This document shows positions 8,271 through 30,285 of a stretch of DNA of 32,045 bases, piece after piece. The notes beneath the pieces were generated by a model. That model was not told the DNA's origin. It worked only from the letters and a program-made list of their open reading frames with translations, and made no database searches. This DNA comes from Anaerolineae bacterium (GTDB lineage Bacteria; Chloroflexota; Anaerolineae; J102): contig JALXCB010000199.1 in NCBI GenBank assembly GCA_026991225.1, forward strand, positions 1 to 32,045, in the 5' to 3' direction. A program made the position numbers and the translations under genes. How positions within the stretch are numbered: position 1 is the first letter of the stretch; every line of letters starts with the position of its first letter.

Positions 8271-11200
8271 ATGACCACGATTCGCCGCCTCTTCCCTTAC
8301 CTCCTCCTCGCCCTCATCTTGCTGGTGGGGTTTGCGTTGCGCACGTTCAACGTGGATTGGGCCGACGGGCAGCTTCCCCATCCCGACGAGCGCTCCACCG
8401 TCGCTTTCTTCGCGCCTACCATCCACTGGCCCGAGGACGCCTCCCTCATCCTCGACGTGGACCACTCCCCGCTCAATCCCTTCAATGACCCGGGCAGCGG
8501 CCGCAAGCGCTCCTACACCTACGGGCACTTCCCCCTCTACCTGCTGGTGATCACGGCCCGCCAGACCCCGAAACTGGCCCCGCTGGCCGAAAAGCTGGGC
8601 GCGCCCGAAAAGATCGTGACGATGATGCAGCAGGCGGATGGCGTGCCCGGTTACGCCTGGGTGGGCCGGGTGTTGGTGGCCATCTTCGACACGCTGACCA
8701 TCCTCTTCCTGTTCCTCATCGGCAAACGTCTGTGGGGCGTGCACGCGGGCCTGCTGGCCGCGGCCTTTGCCGCGTTCACCGTCCAGCAGATTCAACTGTC
8801 CCACTTCTTCGCGGTGGATCCCATCTCCGCTGCGTTCGTGGTCATCACCATCTACTTCGCCATCAAGATGCTGGACACGGGCGGCTGGGGATATACTTTG
8901 CTCACGGGCGTCATGGCGGGGCTGGCCGTGGCGTCCAAGTTCAGCGCCATGCCCGTGCTGGCCGCGCCCGTCATCGCGGGCGGGCTGCTCACCTGGCGGC
9001 AGGCGAAGTCGGATGATAGGACGAAGACGCCCGGCTGGTTGCTGGCCGCGGCCGCGTTGGTCGTCGCGTTTATCGCATTTTTCGTCACCTCGCCCTTCGC
9101 CATCCTCGATTGGAAATCCTTCCACCAGTTCGTGATCAAAGAACAGGGTGCCATGGTCCGGGGCGAGGCCGATCTCCCCTACACTCGCCAGTATCGGGGC
9201 ACGACGCCCTATCTCTACTTCATCGAACAGCAGGTGTTGTGGGGCATGGGCATCCTGCTGGGGCTGGTGGGATGGTTGGGATTTGGCTGGGCCATGGTGC
9301 GAGCCATCCTGGGCAGGGCCCAGGCTGGCGTGTGGATCATCCTGGCCTGGCTGGTTCCCTACTTCTTGGTTACGGGCGGTTTTCTGGCCAAATTCAATCG
9401 CTACATGGCGCCGGTGGATCCATTGTTGAGTCTGTTGGGGGCGGGGATGCTGTGGTCGCTGGCGGTGTGGGTGGCAGGAAGGAAGAGTAATCAGTTATCA
9501 GTAATCAGTGATCCGTCTTCAGAGGAAGAAGGACAGAACGACGCACACTCAATACCCAATACCCAATATCCTAATCCTAATCCTGATCCTGATCCTGATC
9601 CTGATCCCAATCCCCCCATCGCTGAACCCATCCCCGAATCCGTGTACACCGCGCCCGAACGTCGGGCCAAGCGTCTCTTCTGGGCCATGGGGCTGATCGT
9701 GCTCATCCCCACCATCCTCTGGGCCCTGGCCTTCGTCAATGGCGTCTATCGCACCGAACACCCATTCATCACCGCGTCCAAGTGGATGTATGCAAACATC
9801 CCCGACGGCAGCACGATTATCACTGAGCACTGGGAGGAGGGCATGCCCCTGAACCTGCCCATTCCGGGCGGGTATCCGGCCGCGCACGACTGGAAGAGCG
9901 TGACCATGCCCATGTATGAGGAGGACACGCCGCAGAAGTTCGAGATCATCAAGCAAAACATGCGGGAAGGGGATTATTACGTGCTGGCCACGAAACGGCT
10001 CTACGGCGCCCTACCCCACCTGCCCCAACGCTATCCCATGAGCATCGAGTTCTACAAGCTGCTGTTCGAGGGCAAGCTGGGCTATGAGCTGGTGGGCGAT
10101 TTCCACACCTACCCCAAGTTGCTCGGCATCGAAATTCCCGACCAGAGTGCGGACGAAAGCTTCTGGGTCTACGACCATCCCCGCACGCTCATCTTCAAGA
10201 AGGTGCGGGACCTGAGCGATGAGGAATGGGATCAGCTTCTGGGCGGGCTGTGGGAAAAGGCCATTCCCTACTACACGGGGGATGAGAAGTCGGGCGGGCT
10301 GTTGAGCAAGCTGACCTTGGGCCTGCTGGGGGGCAAAAAGCAGCCTGGGGAGCCGAAAGAAGAGAAAAATTTGCTCCTGGATCAACCCGTGGACACGCTG
10401 CCCGACGTGGGGCGGGTGGCCTGGAACCCACTGCGGGAGAGCAGTCTGGCTTCGGTGATCGTCTGGTGGCTGGCGCTGCTGGGATTGCAGATACTGGCCT
10501 GGCCCGTGGCCTTCACGGTCTTCGGCAGCCTGCGGGACCGGGGCTACGCGTTCGCGCGGGCGCTGGGGCTCATTCTTCTGGCCTGGGTGAGCTGGATGCT
10601 GGCCTCCTCCCACCTCCTCATCAACAACCTCCTGCCGTATATCATCGCTCTCGTCCTGCTGGCGTTGCTGTCCTTCCTGCTGTGGCGGCGGCAGCGGGAA
10701 GCCATGGCCGCGTTCTGGCGGGAGCGACGGGGACTCATTCTCATCCTGGAAGGCGTATTCACCGCGGCCTTCCTCTTCTTCGTATTCATCCGCCTGCTGA
10801 ATCCCGACCTGTGGCAGCCCTGGTTCGGGGGCGAGAAGTTCATGGAGTTTGCGTTCCTGAATGCGGTGTTGAAGACGCCCTACTTCCCGCCCTACGATCC
10901 CTACTACGCGGGCGGGATCATGAATTACTATTACTATGGCTACCAGCTCCTGGCCGTCCTCATCAAATTGACGGGGTTGAAGCCCACCATTGCCTTCAAT
11001 CTGGCCATCCCCACCCTCTTCGCCCTGACCTTTACGGGCGTGTTCAGCCTGGCCTACACCCTGGCGCCCCGACTGCGGGGCCGGGCGCAATCCTGGCAGG
11101 ATGGGCTGGGCGCGGGGCTGCTGGCGGGCGTCATCGTGGCGGTGATGAGCAATCTGGAGGGCGGCCTGGCTCTCATTCGTAATCTGGCGCAGGTCAGCCC

Positions 11201-18057: not shown

Positions 18058-18855
18058 ATGACCAACCTCCCCCGTTCATTGTCACAGAACCCGCGCGTCC
18101 TGCGCCTGGCCCGCATCTTGTTGGGCGCGAGCTCGCTGGCGTTGTTCCTGTTGCTGTGGGAGGGGTTGGTGCGATGGCAGGATTATCCCCCCTACATCCT
18201 GCCCGGCCCTGGCGACGTTTGGGCTCGGTTTCTGGCCGCAGCCGCGGACGGCAGCCTGGCCCGGCACGCCAGCATCACCCTGGTGGAGGTGCTGGGCGGG
18301 CTGGTCCTGGGCGTGAGCGTGGCCACCCTGTTGGGGTATCTGCTGGCCAAATCCCCGCTGCTGGACCAGCTCGTCTCGCCCTACATCGTGGCCCTGCAAG
18401 CCTTCCCCGTCGTGGCCCTGGCTCCTCTGCTGGTCATCTGGATCGAGGACAGCCTCATCCGCACTATGATCGTGGCCGCGCTGGTGCTCTTCTTTCCGGT
18501 GCTGGTGAACATCATCGCCGGTCTGCGTTCGGTGGAGCCGGAACTGGTGGCCATGATGCGATCGTTGCAAGCCACCCGCTGGCAAATGTTCATCAAACTG
18601 GAAGCGCCTTTCGCCCTGCCCGTGCTGCTGGCGGGCCTGAAGATTGGCGCCACCCTGGCGGTCATCGGCGCGGTCATCGGCGAATTCGTGGGCGCAGACC
18701 GGGGCCTGGGCTTCCTCATCAACCTGGCCCAGGGCCTGCTGGACACGCCGCTCATGTTCGTGGCTCTCTTCACCCTGGCCGCCATCGCCCTGGGCCTGTA
18801 TGGCCTGGTCAGCCTGCTGGAACGCCATCTCCTGGCCTGGAAACGAGCCGTCTGA
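18058..18855 (+). CDS. ABC importer permease (SsuC/ThiX/TauC-like)
   Basis: A 265-residue inner-membrane permease of the nitrate/sulfonate/pyrimidine-precursor importer family (BPD_transp_1). It has about six helices and the cytoplasmic EAA-like loop 'EPELVAMMRSLQATRWQMFI' followed by 'LPVLLAGLKIGATLAVIGAV', which docks on the ATPase. The start at 18058 follows the promoter directly; a longer frame upstream (from 17842) runs through repeat sequence and is rejected. It is the first gene of an operon with the binding lipoprotein (29-bp gap) and the ATPase (7-bp gap). The substrate is not determined by this subunit. Confidence 0.88.
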   Translation: MTNLPRSLSQNPRVLRLARILLGASSLALFLLLWEGLVRWQDYPPYILPGPGDVWARFLAAAADGSLARHASITLVEVLGGLVLGVSVATLLGYLLAKSPLLDQLVSPYIVALQAFPVVALAPLLVIWIEDSLIRTMIVAALVLFFPVLVNIIAGLRSVEPELVAMMRSLQATRWQMFIKLEAPFALPVLLAGLKIGATLAVIGAVIGEFVGADRGLGFLINLAQGLLDTPLMFVALFTLAAIALGLYGLVSLLERHLLAWKRAV

Positions 18856-18884
18856 ACCCCTCGATCGATACCCAATCCTACGAT

Positions 18885-19949
18885 ATGAACGACAACCGCT
18901 TCGCATTCTCTCCAATCCTGATCCCAATCCCAATCCCAATCCCAATCCCAATCCCAATCCTGATCCTGGTCCTTTTTCTGTCCGCCTGCGGCGCGCCGGA
19001 GAGGACGACGCCCACATCCACACAGACGTCCGCCCCCATCGCTCTGGGAGTGGGCTATATTCCCAGTGTGCAGTTCGCCCCTCTCTACGTCGCCATCGAC
19101 AAGGGCTATTTTGCGGACGAAGGCCTGACTGTTTCCCTGGAATATGGCTACGAGACCGATTACATGAAGCTTCTGGCCCTGGGCAAACGGGAATTCATCA
19201 TCGCCAGCGGAGACGTGGTTATCCTGGCCCGGGCCCAGAAACTGCCCGTGAGCTATGTGGCGGAATGGTATACGAAATACCCGGTGGTCGTTTTCTCGCC
19301 CCAGGAAAAAGGCATCGAAGCGCCTGAAAACCTGGTTGGGAAGACGGTGGGGATCCCCGGCCTGTTCGGCGCGAGTTATGTGGGCTGGAAGGCGTTGGTC
19401 TACGCCGCACGCCTGCCCGAAGACAAGATCATCCTCAAGACCGTGGGCTTCAACCAGACCGCGGCGTTGCAACAAGGACAGGTGGATGCGGCCGTGGATT
19501 ACGCGGCCAACGGGCCGGTGCAATTCCAGGTCCAGGGTATCCCGGCCAACGTCATCGTGGTGGATGACTACATGCATCTGCCCAGCAATGGCCTGGTCAC
19601 CAGCGAGAAGGTCATGGCCGAGCATCCCGATCGGGTGGAGGGCATGGTGCGGGCGTTGCTGCGCGGCGTCGCTTTCACCCTGGCGAATCCCGATGAGGCT
19701 TTCCAGATCAGCCTGAAACATGTGCCTGAGGCGAAGCAAAACATCGCGATGAGCCGGGCCATCTTCGACGCGTCTCTGCCTTACTGGACGCCCAAATCGC
19801 CCGACGCGTTGGGCCGCACCGACCCCGCCATCTGGCCCGAGACCGCGCAATTTCTGGCCGATGCGGGCTTCACCGAGACGCCTGTGCCCACCGACGGCAT
19901 TTGGACCAACGACTTTGTGGAGAAGGCGGGCGTGACGCTCACGCCCTGA
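18885..19949 (+). CDS. Substrate-binding lipoprotein, NMT1/SsuA/RibY-like, with (Ile-Pro)n signal peptide
   Basis: A 354-residue exported binding protein. The N-terminus is a lipoprotein signal with lipobox L32-S-A-C35. Its hydrophobic core is an unusual Ile-Pro alternation (residues 13-25) encoded by a hexamer array. The mature part starts with a Ser/Thr linker, then the NMT1-type fold: 'ALGVGYIPSVQFAPLYVAID', 'GYFADEGLTVSLEYG', 'LGKREFIIASGD', 'GKTVGIPGLFGASYVGW', 'VDAAVDYAANGPVQF'. Relatives bind thiamine-pyrimidine precursors (ThiY), riboflavin (RibY of Chloroflexus) or sulfonates (SsuA). 'GYIPSVQFAPLY' fits the ThiY/RibY side best, but I cannot fix the ligand, and no TPP or FMN riboswitch was seen upstream. 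Cysteine 35 anchors it to the membrane near the permease. Confidence 0.88.
   Translation: MNDNRFAFSPILIPIPIPIPIPIPILILVLFLSACGAPERTTPTSTQTSAPIALGVGYIPSVQFAPLYVAIDKGYFADEGLTVSLEYGYETDYMKLLALGKREFIIASGDVVILARAQKLPVSYVAEWYTKYPVVVFSPQEKGIEAPENLVGKTVGIPGLFGASYVGWKALVYAARLPEDKIILKTVGFNQTAALQQGQVDAAVDYAANGPVQFQVQGIPANVIVVDDYMHLPSNGLVTSEKVMAEHPDRVEGMVRALLRGVAFTLANPDEAFQISLKHVPEAKQNIAMSRAIFDASLPYWTPKSPDALGRTDPAIWPETAQFLADAGFTETPVPTDGIWTNDFVEKAGVTLTP
18915..18968. repeat. Hexamer microsatellite in a signal peptide (telomere-like, G4-capable)
   Basis: Nine tandem units: ATCCTG, ATCCCA x6, ATCCTG x2. On the minus strand this is (TGGGAT)6, with six GGG runs separated by three bases, a strong G-quadruplex pattern. 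In frame it encodes Ile-Pro pairs; gain or loss of a unit adds or removes two residues without frameshift. Confidence 0.95.
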
Positions 19950-23595: not shown

Positions 23596-24373
23596 ACTCC
23601 GTCTCCCTGCCGGTGACATGCTCATACAGCCGGGCCAGGGCCGCGGTGCGGGTTTCGGGCTGGGGCAGTCCGGCCTGAGCGAGGAGCTCTTCGGGCGCGC
23701 CATGGGCCAGCAGGCGGCCATGGTTCAGGATGAGAACGCGGCGGGCGAAGGGGGCCACCGCGCCCAGTCGATGGGTGGAGAGGAGCACGCTGGCCTGGGG
23801 CTGTTCTTGCAGATACATCCCCAGCAGGTGCATGAAATCCCCGGCCGCGGCCGGGTCCAGGCTGCGGGTGGGTTCATCCAGCAAAAGGATGGTGGGGCGA
23901 TGGAAGAGGGCCCGGGCCAGGGCCAATCGTCCCCGTTGTCCGCTGGAAAGGCTCCCCACCCGACGGTGGATGAATGCCTCCATCCCCAGCGTCGCCGCCA
24001 GTTCGGCCAAACGCCGTTGAAACGCCCGCCCGCGAATGCCATAGCCGGCCGCGAAGAAGCGCAGGTTTTCGCGACTATCCAGCCGCCAGAAGAAACTGCG
24101 ATCCGGATCGGTGATGACGCCAATGTGCGCCCGCACCGCCCGGCTTTGGGACAATGGCCGCCCCGCCACCCAGGCTTCCCCCGCATCGGGGCGCAGCAAG
24201 GTGGCCAGGATTTTGAACAGGGTGGTCTTGCCCGCGCCGTTGGGCCCCAGCAACACCGTCATCTCCCCGGCGTCGATCTGAAAATGGATGGGGTGCAGGG
24301 CCTGAACGGGGGGCTTGCCGGGGTAGGTCTTGGCGAGGCCCTCCACGCGAATGGCGGGATGCCTGTGGTTCAT
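23585..24373 (-). CDS. ABC exporter ATP-binding protein
   Basis: A 262-residue ATPase. Walker A is 'GPNGAGKTT' (43-51), the signature is 'LSSGQ' (142-146), Walker B is 'ILLLDEPT' (162-169), and 'LLSTHRL' holds the switch histidine. The 'PNGAGKTT' and 'LSSGQ' forms are typical of exporter (ABC-2, DrrA/CcmA-like) subunits. The region after Walker A ('VITDPDRSFFWRLDSRENLRFF') is like that of polysaccharide or lipid exporters. It overlaps the upstream gene by ATGA (24370-24373) and the permease gene by 11 bp, so all three should be co-translated. Confidence 0.92.
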   Translation of the reverse strand: MNHRHPAIRVEGLAKTYPGKPPVQALHPIHFQIDAGEMTVLLGPNGAGKTTLFKILATLLRPDAGEAWVAGRPLSQSRAVRAHIGVITDPDRSFFWRLDSRENLRFFAAGYGIRGRAFQRRLAELAATLGMEAFIHRRVGSLSSGQRGRLALARALFHRPTILLLDEPTRSLDPAAAGDFMHLLGMYLQEQPQASVLLSTHRLGAVAPFARRVLILNHGRLLAHGAPEELLAQAGLPQPETRTAALARLYEHVTGRETEYGR

Positions 24374-27360
24374 GCTTCATCCACCAGCAGGACGCATTCG
24401 TGGGTGCGGCCATCCACCTTCAAGGTCATAGGACGTTCCAGCCGGGCGTTGGCCACATAGTCGGTTTCCTCCACGACGGGCAACGAGCGCAGCCATTCCC
24501 AGTGAATGCCTTCGCCGTTTTGACCCGAAATGTTGATATACCCAATGCCCTGGGTGGTGATATTGTGGAAGAAATGGGAGCCCTGCGACGGCTCCACCCG
24601 GAAATCATCATACACAGCCTCGACGATGGCCCCTACGCCCGAGATATCGGCCCAACGCACGGGGATGCCCAGCCAGCGGTCGGAGGTGCCCCATCGACCG
24701 GGGCCAATGAGCAGATAGGGGCGTCCCTCCTTGATCAATCGGGCGTTCATACGACCGATTTCCTCGGCGATCTGCATCGTTTTGCCGATGTCGAAGGTCT
24801 CGGGCTTGACGTAGACGATATCCCGCATCTCGCGGTTGACGAAGTTGCCCAGGGCGTGGGAAGAAAAACATTTGGCCCGGCGGCGATCCGCTTCCGTGAT
24901 GTCCACCGGCCCCAGCTCCGCCCGCGCGGTCATGGGGCGCAGTTGCAGAAAGGCGAATTCGGGCGGCTCCTTTTTCGTCAGCTTCAGGTCCACCGAAAAT
25001 TCCATCTCCACTTCCGCCCCCATGCCCTGTTTGCCCAGCTCCAGCGCGTCCACCAGGATATCGGGCAGGGGGAATTGTCGATATTTGAGCACGTTGGCGA
25101 AGGTGAGCACCCGATAGCCGGGGATCATGACCGTGTCGCGGATGCGATGCTCCGCAGGCACGTAGGTGCTGGAGAGATATTGGACGGGGGGTTCGTCCAG
25201 TGCGTCGCTCACGTCCCGCCGCACCAGATTCTCCGATTCGGTGATGTCCAACGCGTGGTAATCCTCCCCCATCTTCAGGGCGTAGAAATGGGTTTGGGCG
25301 TTCTTGAGGATGTCATCCACCGAGGATAGCTGGGGTTGAATGTGCGGGTAACGGGGACAGAAACGCAGGGTGCGTTCGCCCTCGACCACGGCCCGGCCCA
25401 GGCCCAGGGCGATGGTGGCGATGCCGTCCTCGGGCTTCATGCGGGCGAAGGGATAGTAGTTGTAGGATTGGGCCACGCCCGAGATGGCGGGATAGAAGAA
25501 GTCGCCATACCGATCCCCCACCAGCCGCTGAATCACCACCGCCATCTTCTCTTCCTCGATGCGGCGCCCGATGCGGCGGGAGAAGGCTTTGGGGCCGCGA
25601 AAGTAGGTGGAGGCGTAGACGAGTTTGACCGCGTGGATGAGGTGCTCCAGCCGCCGTTCCAGGCTGGGGTGTTCGTTGGGGAGCATGTAGGTGCGATAGA
25701 GGCCGGCGTAGGCCTGGAATTGGGCGTCTTCCAGCAGGCTGGAGGAGCGCACGGCCAGGGGATAGCGCACCTGAGAGAGGAAGGCCCGCAGGTCGTTCTC
25801 CGCCCATTTGGGAAAGATGCCCCACATGAAGCGGGCGGAGATCTCCTGATCGCTCAGGTCCGCCTCCGCCAGATAACCCAGGCGGTTGGCTTCGATGAAC
25901 TCGTCGAAGACTTCGGTGGTGATGACCAGGGTCTGGGGCACATCCAGCAGGATATCCTTGTATTTCTGTCGGAACTCGCGGTGTTCGTTCATCAAGGCCA
26001 GCCAGAACGCGAGGCCGCGGGCTTTGCCCCCCAGCGATCCCTGTCCGATCTTGAAGAAATCGGTGACCAGATCGAAATCGTCCGCGGCGAAATCGACCAC
26101 GACGCCCCGCTGGCGGGCCCGGCGGCGGGCGTGGATGAGCCGCACCAGGAAATCGCGCATGGCCTCGATGCTCTCGAAGTCATCCAGACGCAGATCGCGC
26201 AGCTTGGCGCCCAACACCGTTTCGGTGCGGGTGAAAAGCCAGCGGGAAAAGTCGTTGCGCTCGGCGTGAAAGCGCAGGGATTCCGCCGGAACCGTTTGCA
26301 GCGCCTTTTCCATGCTGCGCAAGTCCGAGGCCCGGGCCACCTCCTGGCCGTTGGGCAGGCGGAAGATGAAATCGCCGAAGGCCAGGCTGTGGATGAAAAA
26401 GGCGTGCAGGTCCTCTCGCACGCGCGGCGAGGTTTTGTTCAGAAAAGCGGCCTGCAATTTGCGGGCGTGACGCTCGTTGTTTGGATCCACGCTGGTGAGC
26501 ATGAGCGCGATATCGAATCGATCCTGGCGGATCATGCGCAGGAGATCGACGCCCGCTTTCGGGTCCAACACGCCGTTGCGGGGGAATTCGACATCGGAGA
26601 TAACGCCCAGAATGTAAGGTTCGAACTGGCGATAGATAGCCACAGCCTCTTCGTAGGTCTCGGCCACGAGGATTTTGGGCCGGGCCCGCATGACCAGCAG
26701 GCGATGCTCCTCGTTCAGCTTGCCTTCCAGCACCTTGCGGGTCTGGCTGACCACCTCTTTGTAGAGAATGGGCAGGATAGTGGAGAGATGCAGGGGCGAG
26801 TTTTCCACGAAGAGGATGATACGCACGCCCGCCAGTTGCGTGTCCTGCGGCGCGTTGCGCCTGTCCTCCTCGCTCTTGACGATGGCGACCAGCAGTTCGG
26901 TGTTCCCCGTCCATACAAAAGCCCGATCGATGACCCGCGGCTGGCCGGGCGCATGGAACGCGGTCGGGTCCAGCATGACGCTGTGGGAGATGAGCACCAC
27001 GGCGATGTCGGGGTCCCGGGCCTTGATCTCTTTGGCGAAGGCCAGCGCGTCCATGTCCGCAATGCGGGGCATGGTGATGACCATCTGATAGCGTTTTTCC
27101 TCCAGCCGTTTGAACGCTTCTTCAGCGGTGGAAACCCAGTGCAATTGCGGGGGATGACTCAGATTCAGCCCCCGATATTCATTGATGATATGCTCCGACA
27201 GCCGCCCATCCTCCTCCATAATCCAGGCGTCGTAAGGGCTGGAGACCAGGAGAATGCGTCGCACCTTCCAGGACATCAATTCATGATAGATTTTGAAGCT
27301 CGACTCCAGGTCACTGACCTCGTCGATGAGCTTCTCCAAATCTAATTTCGTATATCTCAT
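24370..27360 (-). CDS. PEP/pyruvate-binding (PPDK N-domain) protein with two receiver-like domains
   Basis: A 996-residue protein. Residues about 30-160 ('RRILLVSSPYDAWIMEE', 'QMVITMPRIADMDALAFAKEI') and about 180-310 ('VRIILFVENSPLHLSTILPIL', 'GVISDVEFPRNGVLDPKAG') look like response-regulator receiver folds. From about 435 it carries the ATP-grasp PEP/pyruvate-binding domain of pyruvate phosphate dikinase: 'GQGSLGGKARGLAFWL', 'YPLAVRSSSLLEDAQFQAYAGLY' and the later 'GPGRWGTSDRWLGIPV'. The phosphohistidine swivel domain (GG.TSH) is not seen, so it is not a complete PEP synthase. Such ~1000-residue proteins occur in several phyla and are uncharacterised; nucleotide-dependent phosphotransfer or signalling is inferred. 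The ATG at 27360 is preferred over a GTG at 27375 that lies in a repeat. It is the first gene of an operon with an ABC exporter. Confidence 0.85.
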   Translation of the reverse strand: MRYTKLDLEKLIDEVSDLESSFKIYHELMSWKVRRILLVSSPYDAWIMEEDGRLSEHIINEYRGLNLSHPPQLHWVSTAEEAFKRLEEKRYQMVITMPRIADMDALAFAKEIKARDPDIAVVLISHSVMLDPTAFHAPGQPRVIDRAFVWTGNTELLVAIVKSEEDRRNAPQDTQLAGVRIILFVENSPLHLSTILPILYKEVVSQTRKVLEGKLNEEHRLLVMRARPKILVAETYEEAVAIYRQFEPYILGVISDVEFPRNGVLDPKAGVDLLRMIRQDRFDIALMLTSVDPNNERHARKLQAAFLNKTSPRVREDLHAFFIHSLAFGDFIFRLPNGQEVARASDLRSMEKALQTVPAESLRFHAERNDFSRWLFTRTETVLGAKLRDLRLDDFESIEAMRDFLVRLIHARRRARQRGVVVDFAADDFDLVTDFFKIGQGSLGGKARGLAFWLALMNEHREFRQKYKDILLDVPQTLVITTEVFDEFIEANRLGYLAEADLSDQEISARFMWGIFPKWAENDLRAFLSQVRYPLAVRSSSLLEDAQFQAYAGLYRTYMLPNEHPSLERRLEHLIHAVKLVYASTYFRGPKAFSRRIGRRIEEEKMAVVIQRLVGDRYGDFFYPAISGVAQSYNYYPFARMKPEDGIATIALGLGRAVVEGERTLRFCPRYPHIQPQLSSVDDILKNAQTHFYALKMGEDYHALDITESENLVRRDVSDALDEPPVQYLSSTYVPAEHRIRDTVMIPGYRVLTFANVLKYRQFPLPDILVDALELGKQGMGAEVEMEFSVDLKLTKKEPPEFAFLQLRPMTARAELGPVDITEADRRRAKCFSSHALGNFVNREMRDIVYVKPETFDIGKTMQIAEEIGRMNARLIKEGRPYLLIGPGRWGTSDRWLGIPVRWADISGVGAIVEAVYDDFRVEPSQGSHFFHNITTQGIGYINISGQNGEGIHWEWLRSLPVVEETDYVANARLERPMTLKVDGRTHECVLLVDEA

Positions 27361-27373
27361 AAGTCCACGTTCC

Positions 27374-27562
27374 ACTGATTACTGATCACTGGATGCACTG
27401 CAAAAAGATTTTTCAACACGGAGACACGGAGGACACAGAGAAAAAAAAGGGGGTTCACGGAGAAAATTCTCTCCAAACCTTATCTTTTTCCTTCTCCGTG
27501 CTCTCTGTGTCTCCGTGGTTAAGGTTTTTTCAGGAAAGCCATTACTGATTACTGATCACTGG
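27374..27562. repeat. Inverted-repeat element between 19-bp direct repeats
   Basis: ACTGATTACTGATCACTGG occurs at 27374-27392 and identically at 27544-27562. Between them an imperfect palindrome is built from CACGGAGACACGGAGG on the left and CTCTGTGTCTCCGTGG on the right. The heptamers also make up the DNA just before the ATG of the PEP-binding gene. Confidence 0.8.
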
Positions 27563-27618: not shown

Positions 27619-27648
27619 TTGGGCAAACCGAGGCGTGTATGGTATATT
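27619..27648 (+). promoter_or_regulatory. Candidate gdhA promoter
   Basis: TTGGGC (27619-27624), an 18-bp spacer, TATATT (27643-27648). It would start a leader of about 330 bases before the gdhA ATG. Confidence 0.45.
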
Positions 27649-27654
27649 ACGCCT

Positions 27655-27960
27655 GTCTGACGCACTTTGCTTCCCCACATCTCGTGCGTCGAAAGTGTAG
27701 CGTGACAATGACGTTTCGCTTGATGCCCAACTTTTCTGTGCGAACTGAATACGCCCTCCTTTGGAAATGCCATGACGGCATCCTTCCAGAGATGACGCGC
27801 ACCCTGCCATCGGCCCTATCGAGGCGGGTGTTTTCGCGTATGCGAAACGTCTCCATATTTCACTCCCCTTTGTCGAATCGAAAACCTGCCGCCTCGGGTC
27901 GTATGACGCCCTGACCGGCGGGTTTTCTTTTTCAAAATCCCTTTCTCAATCCTCATTCAA
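27655..27960 (+). ncRNA. Structured gdhA leader with terminator/antiterminator switch (candidate riboswitch)
   Basis: The leader holds several near-perfect helices: GACGCAC/GTGCGTC (27659-27665 with 27684-27690); GGAA-ATGCC/GGCAT-TTCC (27763-27787, two-base bulge, loop ATGAC); TTTCGC-GTAT-GCGAAA (27832-27847). A long antiterminator is possible: CGAGGCGG (27820-27827) pairs with CCGCCTCG (27889-27896), and G-TTTTCG (27830-27836) continues with CGAAAA-C (27879-27885). That pairing takes up the entire 5' arm of the intrinsic terminator at 27880-27933 and excludes the TTTCGC hairpin. This is the usual layout of a riboswitch or attenuator. I do not recognise any known riboswitch class, and no leader peptide with a codon run is evident. 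No protein-coding gene is supported here. Confidence 0.6.
27880..27933 (+). terminator. Intrinsic terminator in the gdhA leader
   Basis: GAAAACCTGCCG (27880-27891) pairs with CGGCGGGTTTTC (27916-27927) over 12 bp with one G-U, enclosing a smaller GGG-CGT/ACG-CCC hairpin, and a run TTTTCTTTTT overlaps the 3' arm. It sits about 50 bp before the ATG, so it would stop transcription ahead of gdhA unless the antiterminator forms. Confidence 0.75.
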
Positions 27961-27983
27961 CAGTGTAAAAAGGAGACAAACAA

Positions 27984-29333
27984 ATGGACGCTTTCCTGGA
28001 ATACGTGAAAGCCCGGGATCCCAACCAGCCCGAATTTTTTGAAGCGGTGATGGAGGTGTATGAGTCCATCAAACCGGCGCTGGATCGCCATCCCGAATAT
28101 CGCCAGGCCAAGCTCCTGGAGCGCATCGTCGAGCCCGAACGCGTGGTCATGTTCCGCGTCCCCTGGATGGATGATGCGGGCGAGATCCATGTGAACCGCG
28201 GCTTCCGTATCGAAATGAACAGCGCCATCGGCCCCTACAAAGGCGGTTTGCGCTTCCATCCTTCTGTCAACCTCAGCATCCTCAAGTTCCTGGCCTTCGA
28301 GCAGGTGTTCAAGAATGCGCTGACCACGCTGCCCATGGGCGGCGGCAAGGGCGGCTCCGACTTCGACCCCAAGGGCAAGTCAGACGCCGAAGTCATGCGC
28401 TTCTGCCAGAGCTTCATGCTGGAGCTGTTCCGTCATATCGGCCCGAACACCGACGTGCCCGCGGGCGATATCGGCGTGGGTGGTCGTGAGATCGGCTTCC
28501 TCTTCGGCATGTACAAGAAGATTCGCAACGAGTTCACCGGCGTGCTCACGGGCAAGGGCCTGAACTGGGGCGGCAGCCTCATCCGGCCCGAGGCCACCGG
28601 CTATGGCGCGGTCTACTTCGCCAATGAAATGCTGAAGACCCGCAATCTGACCATGGAAGGTAAGGTGGCTCTGGTTTCGGGCGCGGGCAATGTGGCCCAG
28701 TACACCATCGAAAAGCTCCTCGATTTCGGCGCCAAGCCGGTCACTGCCTCCGACTCCAATGGCTACATCTACGACGAGGAAGGCATCGACCGCGAGAAGC
28801 TGGACTTCATCATGTGGCTGAAGAACGTGAAGCGCGGGCGCATCAAGGAGTATGCGGAGAAATACCCCAACGCCGTGTACACGCCCGTGGACCCCAGCCT
28901 GGATTACAACCCGCTGTGGAATCACAAGGCGGACATGGCCTTCCCCAGCGCCACCCAGAACGAGATCAATGGCAAGGACGCCCAGCATCTCGTGGACAAT
29001 GGCGTCTTCCTGGTGGCCGAAGGCGCGAACATGCCTTCCACCCCCGAAGCTATCGAAATCTACAAGCAGCACAATATCCTCTACGGCCCGGCCAAAGCGG
29101 CCAACGCCGGCGGCGTGGCGGTCTCGGGCCTGGAAATGTCGCAGAACAGCATTCGCTTGCAATGGCCTCGCGAGGAAGTGGATCGCAAGCTGCACGAGAT
29201 TATGAAAGCCATTCACCGCCAGGCGTGGGAAACCGCGGAAGCTTATGGCGTTCCCGGCGACCTGCAGGTGGGCGCGAATATCGCTGGCTTCGTCAAGGTG
29301 GCGGACGCCATGCTGGACCAGGGTCTCGTCTAA
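27984..29333 (+). CDS. gdhA: Glutamate dehydrogenase, NADP-type
   Basis: A 449-residue hexameric-type glutamate dehydrogenase that interconverts 2-oxoglutarate plus ammonia and glutamate. The dehydrogenase domain has 'PYKGGLRFHPSVNLS', the catalytic lysine region 'LPMGGGKGGSDFDPKG' (K122) and 'DVPAGDIGVGGREIG'. The Rossmann nucleotide fold is marked by 'ALVSGAGNVAQYTIEKL'. Length and the 'GKGLNWGGSLIRPEATGYG' stretch match the NADP-dependent anabolic enzymes of bacteria (GdhA). A strong Shine-Dalgarno AAGGAGA lies at 27969-27975, nine bases from the ATG. The gene is monocistronic, bounded by the regulated leader and a perfect terminator (29358-29390). Regulation by nitrogen or energy status through the leader is an inference. 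Confidence 0.96.
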   Translation: MDAFLEYVKARDPNQPEFFEAVMEVYESIKPALDRHPEYRQAKLLERIVEPERVVMFRVPWMDDAGEIHVNRGFRIEMNSAIGPYKGGLRFHPSVNLSILKFLAFEQVFKNALTTLPMGGGKGGSDFDPKGKSDAEVMRFCQSFMLELFRHIGPNTDVPAGDIGVGGREIGFLFGMYKKIRNEFTGVLTGKGLNWGGSLIRPEATGYGAVYFANEMLKTRNLTMEGKVALVSGAGNVAQYTIEKLLDFGAKPVTASDSNGYIYDEEGIDREKLDFIMWLKNVKRGRIKEYAEKYPNAVYTPVDPSLDYNPLWNHKADMAFPSATQNEINGKDAQHLVDNGVFLVAEGANMPSTPEAIEIYKQHNILYGPAKAANAGGVAVSGLEMSQNSIRLQWPREEVDRKLHEIMKAIHRQAWETAEAYGVPGDLQVGANIAGFVKVADAMLDQGLV

Positions 29334-29585: not shown

Positions 29586-29843
29586 ATGTCAACCACAGCG
29601 ACATTACAGATATCCCAGCGAGGGGTGATTACCATCCCCAAGTCATTGCGGGAAGCCTATGGGTTGCGTCCCGGCGACACGCTGACGCTCATCGATCTGG
29701 GCGGCGTGTTCGTCCTGAACCCGCATCGATCCGAAATCGACGTCCTGGCCGACAAAATCAAAGCTCAATGGGATGAAGATGGTGTGACGTTGGAAGCGCT
29801 TTTGCGCGCGTTGGAGGAGGAACGGGAGCGTGGAGAAGGTTGA
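29586..29843 (+). CDS. AbrB/MazE-type antitoxin
   Basis: An 85-residue DNA-binding antitoxin. Its SpoVT/AbrB swapped-hairpin fold is clear: 'ATLQISQRGVITIPKSLREAYGLRPGDTLTLIDLGGVFVLNP', with the invariant 'RG.ITIPK..R...GL.PGD'. The acidic helical tail ('ALLRALEEERERGEG') should wrap around and block the toxin encoded next. The start at 29586 is set by AGGAGA seven bases upstream; longer frames enter repeat DNA. The gene overlaps the PIN gene by 14 bp. Such antitoxins usually repress their own promoter (29522-29550). Confidence 0.88.
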   Translation: MSTTATLQISQRGVITIPKSLREAYGLRPGDTLTLIDLGGVFVLNPHRSEIDVLADKIKAQWDEDGVTLEALLRALEEERERGEG

Positions 29844-30285
29844 ATGGCGCATCTTTCTCGACACCAGCGTCCTTTTTGCTGCCGTATACTCGGAGACCGG
29901 AGCAGCACGGGTGATATTGAAGCTGGGAGAGGCTGAGGCGATTTCGCTTTGGATCGGGCCATCGGTATTGAAAGAGATGGAGGCTGTGCTGGCGAGGAAA
30001 TCCCCCAAAAGCAAAGGCTTGTTTGCTCTCTTGCTACATCGGGCCCGGGTGCAAATCGGCCCGGAGCCTGATGCTGATTCGTTGCGCTTGTCGTCGCTGC
30101 TGATCGATTACGCTCTGGACGCCCGGGTGCTGGCCGAGGCGATAGCCATTCAGTCGGATTATTTTGTTTCCTTCGACCGTAAGCATCTGGTGGGAAATGA
30201 GAAACTGGACACGGCGCCTTTGGTTGTGGGGACGCCCGGGGATTTTCTGGCATGGTATCGCACGCAGTTGGCGGGAAGAGCCTGA
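29830..30285 (+). CDS. PIN-domain ribonuclease toxin (VapC-like)
   Basis: A 151-residue PIN-domain protein forming a type II toxin-antitoxin pair with the AbrB protein. Acidic active-site residues are D11 ('IFLDTSVLFAA'), E49 ('PSVLKEMEAVL'), D97 ('ALDARVLAEAI') and D116 ('DYFVSFDRKHL'), the usual four of the PIN_3-like group. It starts at a GTG (29830), since the nearby ATG at 29844 is in another frame; GGAGGAGG lies at about 29813-29820. The target, probably tRNA, rRNA or mRNA, is unknown. Confidence 0.86.
   Translation: MEKVEWRIFLDTSVLFAAVYSETGAARVILKLGEAEAISLWIGPSVLKEMEAVLARKSPKSKGLFALLLHRARVQIGPEPDADSLRLSSLLIDYALDARVLAEAIAIQSDYFVSFDRKHLVGNEKLDTAPLVVGTPGDFLAWYRTQLAGRA

Follow-up and report, generated by a model that had tools for sequence, protein, structure and literature searches.

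The leader of gdhA in the 32,045-nt window (the whole stretch of DNA analysed) might be a translation-coupled transcription attenuator resembling that of E. coli pyrBI, a reading to which sequence and comparison with relatives give about an even chance. That the leader and its intrinsic terminator constitute a regulated leader is well supported. The gdhA gene (27984-29333, plus strand) encodes an NADP-specific glutamate dehydrogenase of 449 aa (NCBIfam NF006929, 742 bits), an enzyme at the meeting point of carbon and nitrogen metabolism. The Shine-Dalgarno sequence of gdhA is AAAGGAGA (-8.9 kcal/mol), and a strong Shine-Dalgarno precedes gdhA in all 14 leaders compared. The leader (27655-27983, plus strand; 329 nt) is a single copy in the genome and lies between an extended -10 promoter and gdhA. 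This promoter lies at 27620-27648 (plus strand), with a -35-like TGGGCA separated by 17 bp from an extended -10 element, (TG)GTATATT. The alignment showed similar promoter elements at the same position in the relatives. With a promoter at this site, transcripts would be expected to start near 27655, ahead of the leader. The leader folds at -105.8 kcal/mol, compared with -84.0 ± 5.3 kcal/mol for 100 dinucleotide shuffles (z = -4.1), none of which was as good. The original prediction had described a leader of about 330 bases with clear hairpins and an intrinsic terminator before gdhA, and all of these elements were recovered in place.

Fourteen gdhA leaders were compared, of which the genus supplied nine, other genera of the same family four (L091-L094), and a different family one (L107). 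Full-length alignment was possible for ten of them, namely the window, L083-L090, and L107. Along the alignment, the promoter elements are followed by a hairpin (P1), a nearly invariant ATG block, a divergent stretch, a further hairpin (P4) with a TTTTCGCG tail, and the terminator. Within the class Anaerolineae, gdhA of the window type is almost entirely confined to one family. The leader lies directly before gdhA in all 14 genomes, and is absent from the family genomes where no gdhA was found. L107 comes from a genome placed in another family (G358, family f38); its gdhA is 89% identical and has the same kind of leader, which reflects either transfer of gene and leader together or bin contamination. 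One member of the genus (L096, genome G010) carries a second gdhA, 81% identical; its contig ends about 87 nt upstream of gdhA, and the short stretch readable there resembles that upstream of gdhA in L092. L002 (JALSPL010000184.1, an Anaerolineae MAG) is apparently the same locus as L089.

Comparative analysis showed that the hairpins P1, P3, and P4 covary. P1, the 5' hairpin (27659-27690, plus strand; GACGCAC...GTGCGTC), is paired in 92.9% of cells across the ten alignable leaders. P3 (TTTGGAAATGCC-ATGAC-GGCATCCTTCCAGA; 27760-27790, plus strand) contains compensatory changes at four of its five inner pairs, and P4 (CACCCTGCC...GGCGGGTG; 27800-27830, plus strand) covaries in the ten leaders. 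When the three hairpins are taken together in this set, 93.5% of cells are paired, versus 29-52% when the pairing is slid. Eight of the 20 pairs have changed on both sides, which was reached by no shuffle. Nine of the ten aligned leaders share an identical 3' strand of P4; in L091-L094, no P4 can be recognised. The local fold TTTCGC-GTAT-GCGAAA given in the original prediction (P5; 27832-27847, plus strand) is also present by direct reading. An alternative pairing that had been overlooked joins GACGTTTCGC (27710-27719) with GCGAAACGTC (27842-27851) over 10 bp, and is preferred by MFE in this genome. Base-pair probabilities showed that this pairing is dominant in L082, L087, L088, and L089, partial in L086, and absent or weak in the others; being strong in four leaders only, it was rejected as a family feature.

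The intrinsic terminator (27880-27933, plus strand) consists of a stem at 27882-27925 (-23.8 kcal/mol) followed by TCTTTTTC. T-tailed terminator hairpins of -20 to -33 kcal/mol occur in ten leaders, with arms that differ in sequence. Of the remaining leaders, L091 has a candidate lying further upstream, L093 a large candidate, and L092 a weak one according to an automatic terminator search, which returned no candidate for L094. By this search, a clear terminator is absent in L092 and L094, which would need Rho or translational coupling.

An unannotated upstream open reading frame (uORF) of 68 codons covers most of the leader (27708-27914, plus strand), and had also been overlooked. It starts with the ATG at 27708, and its stop codon (TGA, 27912-27914) falls within the terminator hairpin. 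Where the terminator is clear and aligned (ten leaders), it starts 155-194 nt after the beginning of the uORF, and the frame closes either beyond the hairpin or within it, 16 nt or more from its start. All 14 leaders keep the frame open, over 62-97 codons, and nearly all of the other frames close earlier; in L092 and L093 the uORF runs as far as the start codon of gdhA. For a single leader, the probability that chance would give an open frame of this length is 0.02-0.22. This value is too high for one leader to carry the case, which rests on the leader set. For the distant and nearly independent L091-L094, the chance of the open frame is 0.11, 0.07, 0.04, and 0.14, respectively. Neutral simulation on the tree of nine leaders, where L107 sits on a saturated branch (4.3 substitutions per site), gave P = 0.003 for codons 5-30 being kept free of stops; this became P = 0.0135 with the tree halved and P = 0.0535 with the tree quartered. 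Peptide-level selection was not detected in codons 5-30, and the uORF peptide matched no NCBIfam model. Changes are spread evenly over codon positions 1, 2, and 3 (506:508:522), and codons 2-4 vary at positions 1 and 2 only (T/A/M/V, F/S, and R/C). These two patterns indicate that nucleotides and frame openness, not the peptide, are kept. Selection thus appears to act on the RNA and on the openness of the frame, and being translated is apparently what is selected.

Conservation within the leader is highest at the start block of the uORF (GCGTGACAATGACGTTTCGC; 27700-27719, plus strand). This block holds the uORF ATG, and is kept in all 14 leaders with the consensus RCGWRACAAUGRYGUYUYGC. A Shine-Dalgarno before the uORF is absent in 13 of the 14, and without one the frame may be poorly translated. 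An 8-bp hairpin (P2) can form in the start block, its 6-nt loop holding the AUG. P2 pairing occurs in 85.7% of cells, but with so little variation at most of its pairs, covariation is hardly informative. Base-pair probabilities favour P2 strongly in some leaders only, and this putative hairpin is not proven. Among 396 genomes searched in the class, 14 have the start block before gdhA, in one copy each. Five other matches in the class lie inside long coding frames, a reversed-pattern control gave three, and a 400-genome sample of the phylum added one match in an mraZ-rsmH-like region. These matches away from gdhA were judged to be chance, the reversed control being about as frequent. The start block was not found before 79 gdhA genes from a protein search, nearly all from other phyla, nor by eye before three distant gdhA genes of the class (L108-L110).

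These features are best explained by the following translation-coupled mechanism. Transcription would begin near 27655. If the uORF were not translated, P1, P3, P4, and the terminator would fold, RNA polymerase would halt near 27930, and gdhA would be off by default. Ribosomes initiating at the AUG at 27708 would trail the polymerase along the uORF to the 5' arm of the terminator, about 170 nt in. A translating ribosome there would prevent the terminator hairpin from closing, and gdhA would be transcribed. The amino acids of the uORF would be irrelevant, and the control point would probably be initiation at the conserved start block lacking a Shine-Dalgarno, via some protein, RNA, or metabolite. 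In E. coli, intrinsic terminators late in the coding region or adjoining the stop codon are repressed by the following ribosome, whereas terminators in the first 100 bp of the coding region are not (PMC4824070). At 155-194 nt into the uORF, the gdhA terminators are located where a ribosome should repress them, which would make termination the default and read-through the result of translation. Translation of the uORF, its raising of gdhA expression, and the role of the start block as sensor are thus predictions from the arrangement of the leader. A more specific proposal is tentative and probably not correct as a whole: the start block might be a new kind of regulatory start site, with an AUG that lacks a Shine-Dalgarno and possibly sits in a hairpin loop; a regulator linked to nitrogen, perhaps GdhA, would control its use, and a single initiation event on a frame with an irrelevant peptide would then decide gdhA transcription.

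The attenuator model does not require conservation as high as that of P4 and its TTTTCGCG tail. The high conservation of this region and of the start block at the nucleotide level speaks for a protein that would bind the start block or P3-P4 and set the terminator directly. GdhA itself is a candidate binder, because the start block occurs only before gdhA, in one copy per genome and with no convincing copy elsewhere. This explanation is nevertheless unlikely, as it gives no reason for a frame that stays open through the terminator in 14 of 14 leaders.

The original prediction had instead proposed a riboswitch with three mutually exclusive helices as its platform, in which an antiterminator strand (the 3' strand of P4 plus TTTTCG; 27820-27836, plus strand) pairs with the 5' arm of the terminator. 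Such pairing does exist in the window: CGAGGCGGGTGTTTTCG pairs with CGAAAACCTGCC of the arm at -18.6 kcal/mol, and four of 300 shuffles were as good. In the window, L083, and L084 the duplex clearly outperforms shuffled arms, and in L090 it does so to a lesser degree. In the other six of the ten leaders (L085-L089 and L107) it reaches -8.4 to -13.8 kcal/mol, and 45-106 of 300 shuffled arms were as good, so that it stands at shuffle level there. As the terminator arm drifts, the antiterminator strand remains unchanged in nine of the ten aligned leaders, and the helix is therefore not kept by compensation. The absence of compensatory changes in the relatives speaks directly against the antiterminator, and leaves the platform of three exclusive helices unsupported. 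The remark that no known aptamer could be recognised agrees with Rfam, which gave no accepted family for the leader at the gathering threshold or at E up to 10. The only hits, both rejected, were a snoRNA on the opposite strand (E 9.3) and, below threshold, Ms_IGR-7 (22.9 bits, cut-off 45), whose match tracks the terminator hairpin. A metabolite riboswitch built on P4, the antiterminator, and the terminator is therefore very doubtful. It fits the covariation of P1, P3, and P4 and the alternative pairings in the window, but not the loss of the antiterminator in relatives, the lack of an Rfam match, or the unrecognisable P4 of L091-L094. Between the start block and P4, the leaders also diverge strongly and share no conserved aptamer-like core. 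Conservation instead peaks at the start block of a uORF running across the proposed switch, a pattern that suggests translation-coupled attenuation.

Classical attenuation by a stalled ribosome, in which a ribosome paused on the 5' arm of P4 would free the antiterminator strand, is equally doubtful. The uORF ATG and P4 (CACCCTG) are 92 nt apart in L107 and eight genus leaders, and 93 nt apart in L085; the 3' strand of P4 is also shared with the antiterminator, and both points speak for this mechanism. However, there are no conserved control codons or peptide, and the antiterminator is weak in most relatives. A free-standing small RNA gene, located by chance before gdhA, would account for the separate promoter and terminator, but is highly improbable given that the element always lies directly before gdhA in 14 genomes and is missing from the family genomes where no gdhA was found. 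Least credible is a DNA operator, with the dyad GCGWRAC-6-GTYTYGC bound by a repressor about 45-65 bp after the transcription start; the start block is an imperfect inverted repeat, but its half-sites match only partly as DNA, its G-T changes are more in keeping with wobble pairing in RNA, and an operator offers no explanation for the open uORF.

Several other features were observed around the gdhA locus and elsewhere in the window. Just upstream of the gdhA promoter, two identical ACTGATTACTGATCACTGG copies (27374 and 27544) flank a dyad formed by CACGGAGACACGGAGG (27417) and its near reverse complement (27502); this region (27374-27562) resembles an intergenic repeat of a small mobile or REP-like kind. 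Divergent from gdhA on the minus strand (24370-27375) is a gene for a protein of 1001 aa, which has a weak receiver-like stretch besides an N-terminal PEP-synthase/PPDK (ATP-binding) domain. Downstream of gdhA (29586-30285), a MazE/AbrB-type antitoxin is followed by a PIN-domain protein (Pfam PF04014 and PF13470), a probable toxin-antitoxin pair. Short tandem dipeptide tracts (PNPNPDPDPDPD and IPIPIPIPIP) occur at about 9500-9650 and 18800-18900, in a membrane protein and a lipoprotein signal region.

A literature search of titles and abstracts (gdhA with riboswitch, attenuator, or Chloroflexi) found no report of gdhA leader control in Chloroflexota. Among known systems, the glnA RNA and Downstream-peptide glutamine riboswitches are likewise leaders of nitrogen metabolism, but the gdhA leader matched neither at E up to 10. 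The trp/his-type attenuators share with it a leader ORF, alternative hairpins, and an intrinsic terminator. They differ in that the gdhA uORF runs through the terminator, and shows no control-codon run, conserved peptide, or conserved antiterminator. No cluster of codons for a regulated amino acid was found in the uORF; Glu and Gln make up 3.5% and 2.8% of uORF residues, without shared runs. The closest anatomy is that of E. coli pyrBI, where coupled translation of pyrL prevents the terminator (PMC5021804). An intrinsic terminator lies between the leader ORF start and the main gene in ten gdhA leaders, and the leader frame runs into or past it, being open in all 14 and having its stop in or beyond the hairpin in those ten; a pyrBI-like function is predicted from these features. 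The two systems differ in gene and signal, and also in the length of the leader frame (135 bp in pyrL, 62-97 codons here). A UTP-type pause tract was not identified in the gdhA leader, which has a conserved start block lacking a Shine-Dalgarno and covarying hairpins inside the uORF. If the translation-coupled reading is true, it would add a leader-ORF attenuator that needs translation of a frame whose peptide drifts freely, with the conserved start site as the likely sensor. As in pyrBI, the leader frame enters the intrinsic terminator, the peptide would not be the signal, and a ribosome close behind the polymerase would block terminator formation.
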